64,000 nucleotides of DNA from assembly GCF_000365425.1 (NCBI RefSeq), contig NZ_AQOV01000002.1:62001-126000 (forward strand). Direction: 5' to 3'. The stretch comes from Methylomonas sp. MK1. Lineage in GTDB: Bacteria > Pseudomonadota > Gammaproteobacteria > Methylococcales > Methylomonadaceae. Below are positions 30,016-31,793 of this stretch, in pieces (position 1 is the first letter of the stretch; each line of letters starts with the position of its first letter). Both the position numbers and the translations under genes were made by a program. Below the pieces are notes generated by a model. That model was not told the DNA's origin, ran no database searches, and saw nothing but the letters and a program-made list of their open reading frames with translations.

Positions 30016-30028
30016 GGTTTTGTTGTTG

Positions 30029-30286
30029 TGTCGCTGGCGCGACGGCTATTTTAATGTCGGTTCTCGCACCGACAGGCGAGATACTTTTCTTTGCTTGTCC
30101 AAAGAAAAGTATCCAAAAGAAAAGACACCCGGACGCCGCTTATTTCCTGCGCTCCGAAGCTTTCGACGGGGGTTGCCGAAAGGGGCTTCCTGCCCCTTCG
30201 GAAACGCGCCGCATCCCTGCGGCGCCCCTACGGGCTATTCCCGCCAAAAGCTCCGGTGCTCGGCGCGGCATACGGGAGAAACCCAC
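30029..30286 (+). repeat. Multi-hairpin repeat, copy 1 (directly downstream of cheD)
   Basis: A chain of hairpins makes up this ~258-base element: GTCGC/GCGAC (30030-30043), TGTCGG/CCGACA (30055-30074), a 14-bp stem GATACTTTTCTTTG/CAAAGAAAAGTATC (30080-30113), a stem around AGGGGC/GCCCCT (30172-30205), GCGCCGCA/TGCGGCGC (30206-30225) and CGGG/CCCG (30231-30243). A second copy lies inverted at 31534-31793. Both copies begin just past the stop of the gene they follow. Short open frames within it are judged non-coding. It may end or stabilise transcripts, or be a non-autonomous mobile element. Confidence 0.8.
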
Positions 30287-30425
30287 TGGCAAGCTCGAAT
30301 GTTTTGACAATACTTTTGGATTTGGTGGAGTGGCTCCGAATAGCCAAGCGTATTTTCGGAGGAAGGAAGAATATTCCAAGCATTCTTTGGCAAGGCATAT
30401 GCCAGATAGATTTTATTCAGCACGC

Positions 30426-30469
30426 GTCCGATTACGCTACGCTAATCGGACCTACTGTGCTCACAGTAG
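30426..30469. repeat. Two tandem palindromes of REP type
   Basis: GTCCGATTA and TAATCGGAC (30426-30434 / 30443-30451) enclose CGCTACGC. The next base starts a second perfect hairpin, CTACTGTG CT CACAGTAG (30452-30469). The ATTACGCTNCGCTAAT core is common among proteobacterial REP sequences (from memory). The pair lies between repeat copy 1 and the broken AT-rich gene. Confidence 0.6.
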
Positions 30470-30505
30470 AGCGACCGAAGGGAGCGAATCCTGTGAAGCT
30501 GATTG

Positions 30506-31342
30506 TTAGGCCATTCTAGAATTAGCGAAGTCACATGCAATTCCTGACCATATTTCAATTATCTGTTTAATTTTCTCATCTATGCCTATCTCTATTGGAA
30601 TTACTGAAATGAAATCCCTTATTGAGAGTGACAAATACAGTGATGAGTACTGGATTACGATATTCATTAGCCTCAAGCTATCTTCCTCCCCCGCCCGAAA
30701 ACCCATAAGCTGTTGTATCGAGAAAGGGTGTGAATGGACGTAGCTCGATAAAAACATAAATACATTTTTGTAATAATCTTTATCAATTTTAGCTAGCTCG
30801 GATATTTCCGAATTGGTTAACAATATTGCTTCCTTAGCATTTCTAATATTCTTCTTGGCTTCTTCATTTAGTTTTTGATACTCATCATGATTAATTATCT
30901 GTTCTTTCAGTTTATCAATATGCTCTTCAATTCTTGGAATTTCGGGATTCTGAGAGCCGATAAGTTCTAGCTTTTTTCTTCATCGCTTTTCAGCGTGATA
31001 ATCCCAAACAAGCCACCGAAACTCATTACCTTTTTTGCCTGGGTCATCTATTGCCACGTAGTATAGAGTGTAATATGTGTCTACCAGCGATCTAGCTAGA
31101 ACGGCTATTGAAGAAATATCCCAAAGCTCTTGCTCTGGAGCGACTTCCCCCGCGGGCGCTTTTGGTAAGAGCACGAATATAGCCCTTGCATGAGATACAA
31201 GTTTTGCAAAAAGTCTCGATCCAATTTCTAGATCTTGGGTTTCTACTTGTATGCCGCTGGTTGCCATAGATATTGAGAATCCCGCATGAATTAGCTCTTT
31301 GAATTCCCAATATGACTCTTTGTATTTCTCTTCCATAATCAT
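30506..31342 (-). pseudogene. Hypothetical protein broken by one in-frame TGA
   Basis: One reading frame of 279 codons runs from ATG at 31342 to the stop at 30506 and is interrupted only by TGA at 30982-30980 (context CGA TGA AGA, protein DYHAEKR*RKKLELIGSQNP). The first part has 120 residues; the second continues in the same frame with a charged helical stretch (EEHIDKLKEQIINHDEYQ) and KDYYKNVFMFLSSYVHSHPF. Family members of similar build read through this point without a stop, as far as I recall. No known domain was recognised; an all-helical HEPN-like fold is possible. Base composition is clearly AT-richer than its neighbours, suggesting transfer. GTTAGGCC/GGCCTAAC at its two edges resemble integron core sites. 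Confidence 0.7.
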
Positions 31343-31533
31343 GACTTCAGTGGCCTAACAAGTGATTAGATAGTTTCTGTATATCTCCCAGAATTGGTAT
31401 ATATACATGTTATGTCAATTCAGGGGGAAGTCTAGCTGGAAAAAGGATTCAGATTTTGTTCAAGCGAAAAACAATGTTCGAGCATGCTTAAGGACGAAGC
31501 TCGACGCACGTTGGTTTGATCTTGGATTATGGG
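31343..31533. other. AT-rich spacer between the broken gene and repeat copy 2
   Basis: It starts next to the GGCCTAAC edge (31353-31360) and includes CCAGAATTGGTATATATACA. GAATTG and CAATTC form a wide inverted pair around the TATATATA stretch. No coding frame is convincing. It probably contains the promoter of the broken gene or a degenerate cassette recombination site. Confidence 0.35.
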
Positions 31534-31793
31534 GTGGGTTTACCCCGTATGCCGCGCCGAGCACCGGAGCTTTTGGCGGGAATAGCCCGCAGGGGCGCCG
31601 CAGGGATGCGGCGCGTTGACGAAGGGGCAGGAAGCCCCTTTCGTCAACCCCCGTCGAAAGCTTTGGAGCGCAGGGAATAAGCGGCGTTCGGGCCGCCTTT
31701 TCTTTGGACACTTTCTTTTGGCGGAGCAAAAGAAAGTATCTCGGCTGTCGGTCCGAGAACCGACATTAAATCAAACCGTCGCGCCAGCGACAC
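31534..31793 (-). repeat. Multi-hairpin repeat, copy 2 (inverted; directly downstream of the FKBP gene)
   Basis: This is the reverse-oriented relative of 30029-30286, with the same order of hairpins. The 14-bp stem here is GACACTTTCTTTTG (31707-31720) with CAAAAGAAAGTATC (31727-31740). It differs from copy 1 at paired positions that still pair. The second long stem is GTTGACGAAGGGGC (31615-31628) with GCCCCTTTCGTCAAC (31634-31648), and GCGCCGCA/TGCGGCGC (31595-31614) is unchanged. It ends 57 bases from the FKBP stop. Confidence 0.8.

Follow-up and report, generated by a model that had tools for sequence, protein, structure and literature searches.

A cargo slot between cheD and FKBP genes in Methylomonas bracketed by ~250-nt elements with a covarying tandem-pseudoknot fold

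What are the two inverted, hairpin-rich sequences that separate cheD from an FKBP gene in Methylomonas sp. MK1, and what holds them in place? The window analyzed here is the whole stretch of 64,000 nucleotides that includes this locus. Its initial annotation, made from the letters alone, described a pair of inverted multi-hairpin copies just past the stop codons of these convergent genes, with compensatory changes in their stems and without a named family. The inverted pair is real, and it belongs to a larger phenomenon than was first noted. The left structured element occupies 30028-30277, its folded strand being the minus strand with the 5' end at 30277 (profile match over positions 1-250, alignment and pair counts), and the right element occupies 31544-31793 with the plus strand as the folded one (supported by the same three kinds of evidence), so that both copies read outward. 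The copies are ~90% identical by BLASTN and start 12 nt past the cheD stop and 56 nt past the FKBP stop, respectively. Inverted arms at 30050-30286 and 31534-31770 extend over 237 nt with 89% complementarity, and an outer 28-nt arm is 86% complementary.

In the left copy (minus strand), pseudoknot a is predicted to contain a 14-bp stem at 30080-30113 (helix 8, arms 30080-30093 and 30100-30113), the loop of which, 30096-30099, pairs with 30124-30127 (helix 7, 30096-30127); both sides have changed at three of these four pairs among 43 copies. A pyrimidine strand at 30115-30122 (alignment columns 161-168) matches the purine arm of the stem in parallel and is predicted to form a major-groove triple helix with it. 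Pseudoknot b (30055-30079) consists of a stem at 30055-30074 and of loop bases 30064-30067 that pair with 30076-30079 (helices 9 and 10), and a terminal hairpin, GTCGC..GCGAC, lies at the outer edge at 30030-30043 (helix 11). In the right copy (plus strand) the 14-bp stem of pseudoknot a is at 31707-31740 and the pyrimidine third strand at 31698-31705. Coordinates of the third strands and of left-copy helices 7, 9, 10 and 11 were converted by hand from alignment columns. The TC/GA to CT/AG exchange reported for the 14-bp stem and the C-G to A-T change reported for a second stem are both present between the two copies. The additional wobble described for the right copy in the 14-bp stem is a T-G pair on one strand, as stated, but a C-A mismatch on the strand on which the family folds (pair 172-201).

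The fold comprises 89 pairs in 11 helices and was assessed on 43 full-length copies, from which a covariance model, R1, was also built. In these copies 98.2% of the cells pair, compared with 88.2% after shuffling and 39-47% with the partners slid, and both sides have changed at 41 of the 89 pairs, above all of 500 shuffles. Among 52 diverse copies, the alignment of which was fitted to R1 and is thus biased toward its structure, 84 of the 89 pairs have changed on both sides and 94.3% are paired versus 69.1% when shuffled; slid versions gave 33-48 pairs changed on both sides. As judged from these alignments, the covariation support for the predicted fold is overwhelming. The outward-reading strand has 68 G-U pairs where the other strand has A-C, against 13 of the reverse kind, and this excess indicates folding of a single strand, either RNA or single-stranded DNA. 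A function as single-stranded DNA would yield the same covariation as a function as RNA.

The same alignments support an arrangement of two pseudoknots in tandem, each closing the other's loops, one of them with a putative covarying triple helix of eight layers. In pseudoknot a the strand preceding the 14-bp stem matches its purine arm in parallel register; eight T.A-T or C.G-C layers are found in 43 of 43 copies, and two positions switch together, with 14 copies in one state and 29 in the other. In the diverse set, scored on the 38 complete rows of 52 (the 14 gapped rows were left unscored), the mean is 7.68 of eight layers versus 6.66 in shuffled rows, the top of 2000 shuffles reaching 7.24. 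By eye, locus L183 has a G opposite a U-A pair in the predicted triplex, and G against U-A is a substitution known from pyrimidine triplexes.

Pseudoknot and triplex RNAs include telomerase RNA, the SAM-II riboswitch and the omega-RNAs of TnpB. The element shares with them an H-type pseudoknot whose major groove takes up a pyrimidine strand, and its base triples covary in a fixed parallel register; unlike these RNAs, it has no Rfam match. No family of Rfam 15 matched the window or 13 loci from other families at the gathering score, and the best hit in a permissive scan of the window region had an E-value of 0.25, which agrees with the initial annotation on the want of a named family. A search restricted to a library of open-access papers found none on the element. 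Identity as an omega-RNA or HEARO is not supported, given the missing Rfam match, the presence of a TnpB domain in three of the 37 genomes of the genus, including the element-free G030, and the shortness of the RRXRR matches in 18 of these 37 genomes (~40-70 of 174 positions).

BLASTN with one copy gave 44 matches in the source genome. Analysis of 26 regions around matches together with the window yielded 63 hits, 43 of them full-length, and 54 copies and fragments after merging, a lower bound that covers the regions around the 44 first matches. The element is ~250 nt long and is present in 34 of the 37 genomes of the genus. Searches with R1 gave matches in 53 of 121 family genomes, 91 of 369 class genomes (from 74 of 272 genera) and 56 of 398 phylum genomes, five candidates being scored per genome in the two latter sets; 44 of the 56 phylum matches fall in the same class, and the other 12 are weak and all in one other family. 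A pattern scan gave, among the matches listed, Stenotrophomonas, Xanthomonas, Luteimonas, Nevskia, Halorhodospira, Acidovorax, Methylovulum, Crenothrix and others, as well as some deltaproteobacterial MAGs, and the element search over the pattern loci covered 65 of 120. No element was found in E. coli and phages, the plasmid collection gave two partial matches, and viral contigs gave one match, in which the pattern of the element core was recognized at L380 7656-7760 in a contig of 37,984 bases.

Comparison of orthologous copies allowed us to follow the fold at fixed positions. Such copies are 90.6% alike versus 84% otherwise, and 46 of 75 copies have their ortholog as closest relative, the remaining 29 a different copy. 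Within the orthologous groups 220 double changes are paired versus 55 broken cells. Among 31 nearest orthologous comparisons, pairing survives in 25 double changes and is lost in one (~2 expected by chance); of the single changes, 47 break a pair and 45 keep one; the substitution rate is 0.027 at paired and 0.071 at unpaired positions. At the level of aligned sequences, these data demonstrate selection on the fold in resident copies, in line with the suggestion made initially from the two window copies and with far greater force than two copies can give.

At the cheD-FKBP site the pair is at the same place in seven relatives, and the central cargo of the window has no BLASTN match at the same site in these seven genomes. 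For eight further sites, flanks were looked for in seven relatives; L055 is a single-copy site, L052 was queried and left unread, and the instances read are those with both flanks found. The seven pair sites gave 42 instances (seven in the source genome and 35 in relatives), all with at least a part of the element on each side, and cargo is shared over at least 70% of the shorter one in 5 of 124 within-site comparisons. Shoulders of ~100-190 nt are found repeatedly, both at one site and between sites, and one cargo was found again at a different site of another species in inverted orientation (S033_G001 and S045_G025, 86%). By these site comparisons the cheD-FKBP pair is shown to be one cargo slot, with brackets that are stable at the site and contents that are exchanged. 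At the single-copy site (L055, L247-L253) two species have the element in minus orientation and five in plus orientation, and an internally deleted remnant is seen in the eighth.

The cargo mostly consists of single AT-rich genes in either orientation, which belong to the DUF4062, DUF2971, FRG, LprI or PLD-like families or to no Pfam family; REPtrons or IS are found in some slots. In the window, the left shoulder (30278-30461) is common to the same site in other species, with positions 6-184 of the window cargo matched in five of seven relatives and over a shorter length in the other two, G011 and G019, and by eye it ends in a GTAG-type hairpin at ~30426-30455. The variable cargo (30506-31342, minus strand) has frames at 30506-30823 (105 aa) and 30980-31342 (120 aa), which are possibly pieces of one broken gene; the 120-aa frame resembles DUF5677 below the cut-off. 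The right shoulder (31353-31543) starts at GCCTAAC, an integron-type core as recognized by eye.

In 162 comparisons with different cargo, element identity is 0.908 and that of the outer flank 0.889, that is, the two are equally conserved. Together with the compensation in place, this conservation leads us to infer that the brackets persist under constraint while their content changes. In 29 of the 162 comparisons the element falls below 0.87, often beside a well-conserved flank, as if it had been replaced. These cases, together with shoulders and elements common across sites and the 29 of 75 copies with a non-orthologous nearest relative, are what would be expected if the elements served as homology arms only, so that dispersed repeats of any function would allow DNA of one slot to recombine into another and the slots would be a by-product. 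We consider this explanation unlikely, as it leaves the selection on the fold unexplained and the element is not visibly replaced in the other 133 comparisons despite the different cargo.

The orientation of neighboring copies was tallied from 46 of 50 and 85 of 87 match rows, with short antisense or partial matches omitted. Among neighbors within 4 kb in the source genome, 20 of 24 are outward, one is inward and three are tandem. Twenty loci of the class gave 19 outward, four inward and three tandem cases, a tally biased by the choice of ten loci that already showed pairs, and the named loci gave 13, nine and three, respectively. Inverted neighbors therefore account for 21 of 24, 23 of 26 and 22 of 25 cases in the three sets. 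The nine inward pairs at the named loci have gaps of 62-231 nt and come mainly from Xanthomonadaceae and one gammaproteobacterial MAG (L259, L261, L268, L284, L289, L312, L324, L327, L331), and their existence means that outward polarity is not universal. Many pairs in other families have a spacer of 35-200 nt without a gene, and solo copies without a partner are also well folded. With respect to genes, simple ORF calls around 17 pairs of the source genome gave four convergent, 12 co-directional and one divergent context, and the tie to 3' ends of convergent genes that the cheD-FKBP site had suggested fails. Of the two expectations attached to the first description, covariation holds in a larger alignment, and the tie to 3' ends of convergent genes is absent. 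A convergent gene that runs into the copy would be transcribed with the folded strand as its antisense, which makes the proposed role as a 3' RNA structure of the flanking genes unlikely.

Our preferred reading, which we advance tentatively and stop short of calling probable, is that the elements may be RNA boundary elements of the cargo slots. The element would act as RNA, and transcripts leaving the slot on either side, as the orientation of the cargo varies, would fold into a compact pseudoknot/triplex that could mark or block their own 3' side. Foreign genes inside the slot would thereby leave the neighbors undisturbed, and the interior would be a tolerated landing site. Cargo would be replaced by recombination inside the brackets via the shared shoulders and the elements, and might also be exchanged by its own carriers (integron-type cassettes, REPtrons, IS) rather than by an enzyme of the element. 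Several observations speak against the RNA-boundary reading: no outward promoter signal was found (score of 7.61 outward versus 7.88 inward at 82 ends), the copy downstream of the cargo does not clearly outscore its upstream counterpart (mean +5.2 bits, sd 15.2, 16 of 28 positive), solo copies are folded, 9 of 25 pairs at the named loci are inward, short spacers elsewhere are gene-less, and 47 single changes break a pair. A role as the 3'-UTR of the cargo was rejected, since downstream and upstream copies show no clear difference.

The full fold retained by every copy, solo ones included, could instead reflect autonomous multi-copy genes for a non-coding RNA, for example a protein-sequestering or regulatory one, in which case the pairs would be divergent copies sharing a central promoter and the cargo would be incidental. 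In several genera some copies (L037 16685-16757, L049 7779-7851, L114, L273, L281) carry an additional loop domain of ~50-70 nt in their first pseudoknot hairpin (pseudoknot a), a feature of the kind found in other structured RNAs. We regard such genes as very unlikely here, given that their 5' ends show no promoter signal, that the spacer of some pairs (35-57 nt) leaves little room for two promoters, and that inward pairs exist.

A further explanation places the function in DNA. The folded strand, whose 3' end lies at the outer edge on either side, would be the substrate of a trans-acting recombinase or HUH-type transposase, and the pair would be a giant REPIN-like or TIR-like unit that carries genes. 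The dominance of inverted over tandem neighbors in all three tallies agrees with this, and the short-spacer pairs resemble such units. Recognition of DNA hairpins by a mobile-element enzyme had also been proposed initially; such an enzyme was looked for and none was found, and no recurrent neighbor protein appeared among the 14 largest ORF clusters at 180 loci, the clusters with most loci being element translations or common families such as ABC ATPases. Inverted repeats around variable cargo are shared by the element pair with MITEs and TIR transposons that carry passenger genes. However, flanking direct repeats are not in excess at 13 pairs (mean 1.62 nt versus 1.53 when shuffled), and no clean empty site was found among instances with both flanks resolved in seven relatives, S055 in G001 being a deletion remnant. 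Identity as a MITE or TIR transposon end is not supported in the absence of a target duplication and a clean empty site and with orthologous sites that are stable. In addition, the two copies of one pair are hardly closer (0.851) than copies of different pairs (0.84), which also stands against the DNA-level explanation.

A RAYT gene lies within 2 kb of an element at 12 of 44 loci in four genomes of the genus, where ~2 are expected by a rough density estimate; RAYT loci with flanking element pairs are L394, L409, L441, L455 and L454. PMC3733652 describes TIR dimers of RAYT-like tyrosine transposase genes, and presents TIR repeats as long, partly self-complementary, in many cases dimeric, and abundant in Stenotrophomonas maltophilia, with a GGGGWSAS motif common to some of them. 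The element is like TIRtrons in its long repeats, dimers and self-complementarity, and it also occurs in Stenotrophomonas. It differs in that no dedicated transposase could be tied to it at the RAYT loci analyzed and in the lack of a GGGGWSAS motif (0 of 43 copies on either strand); the TIR families of S. maltophilia were compared by description. REPs are palindromes of 20-40 bp tagged by GTAG or CGTC (PMC3733652). REPs and REPINs share with the element an extragenic location, hairpin formation and frequent inverted pairs, that is, the inverted-dimer arrangement, whereas the element, with ~250 nt and tandem pseudoknots, is far from the size of such palindromes. The GTAG hairpins lie separately within the slots.

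The RAYTs near elements fall into several groups (19-96% identity), and GTAG hairpins of their own intervene at 6 of 11; the 24 RAYT loci from other families gave a single, weak element match. Because these RAYTs are unrelated, often bring their own hairpins and are nearly free of elements elsewhere, we read the REPtrons as cargo, and ownership of the element by a RAYT or TIRtron finds no clear support in 16 genomes and 47+30 loci. On both sides of this evidence, we hold the DNA-level explanation to be somewhat unlikely. At L394, L409, L392, L430, L436 and L454, RAYT genes with their own GTAG hairpins are located within element pairs or next to them and look like cargo. At L428 and L448 the RAYT frame is 16 and 8 nt from the element, and the reading of REPtrons as cargo leaves both unexplained.

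Integron attC sites, in which structure rather than sequence is conserved (PMC2727003), were considered as well. Integron platforms and the slots have in common single exchangeable genes, and some cargo edges in the slots have GTTAGGC/GCCTAAC cores, whereas the element is without the R''/L''...L'/R' architecture of attC. A strict scan for attC-like ends gave 0 of 53 cargos, its criteria being perhaps too strict in view of a complete attC-like cargo end recognized by eye at L103 in one relative. An integron integrase was found above the cut-off in 14 of the 37 genomes of the genus, the source genome not being among these. Identity of the element with an attC site is not supported, as its structure differs and the strict scan was negative. 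The GCCTAAC/GTTAGGC cores with shared shoulder sequence were noted at the cargo edges at 31353-31359 and 30505-30511 in the window and at L042, L045 and L051.

This ~250-nt fold, which lacks an Rfam entry, numbers dozens of copies per genome and is carried by roughly one in four of the class genomes sampled. If RNA is the active form, it would rank with the larger structured RNAs of bacteria that have no class; if DNA is, the recombination substrate would far exceed attC and REP hairpins in complexity. Under either reading, the slots make testable how accessory genes find harmless chromosomal places to come and go. A more far-reaching proposal, which we consider doubtful, is that of fixed slots, ancient in Gammaproteobacteria, that would be edged by a large pseudoknot/triplex RNA of a new class absent from Rfam and would serve as protected landing sites. 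If the fixed-slot proposal is true, it would represent a new class of chromosomal organization, in which integron-type cassettes, REPtrons and defence-like genes would be exchanged without disturbing the neighbors. Finally, a short extra hairpin (like CGGGACGGTTTTCTCCCG) was seen by eye on the RNA 5' side of most copies, for example at 31524-31548 in the window, where it seems to lengthen the element inward and could compete with the closing stem.
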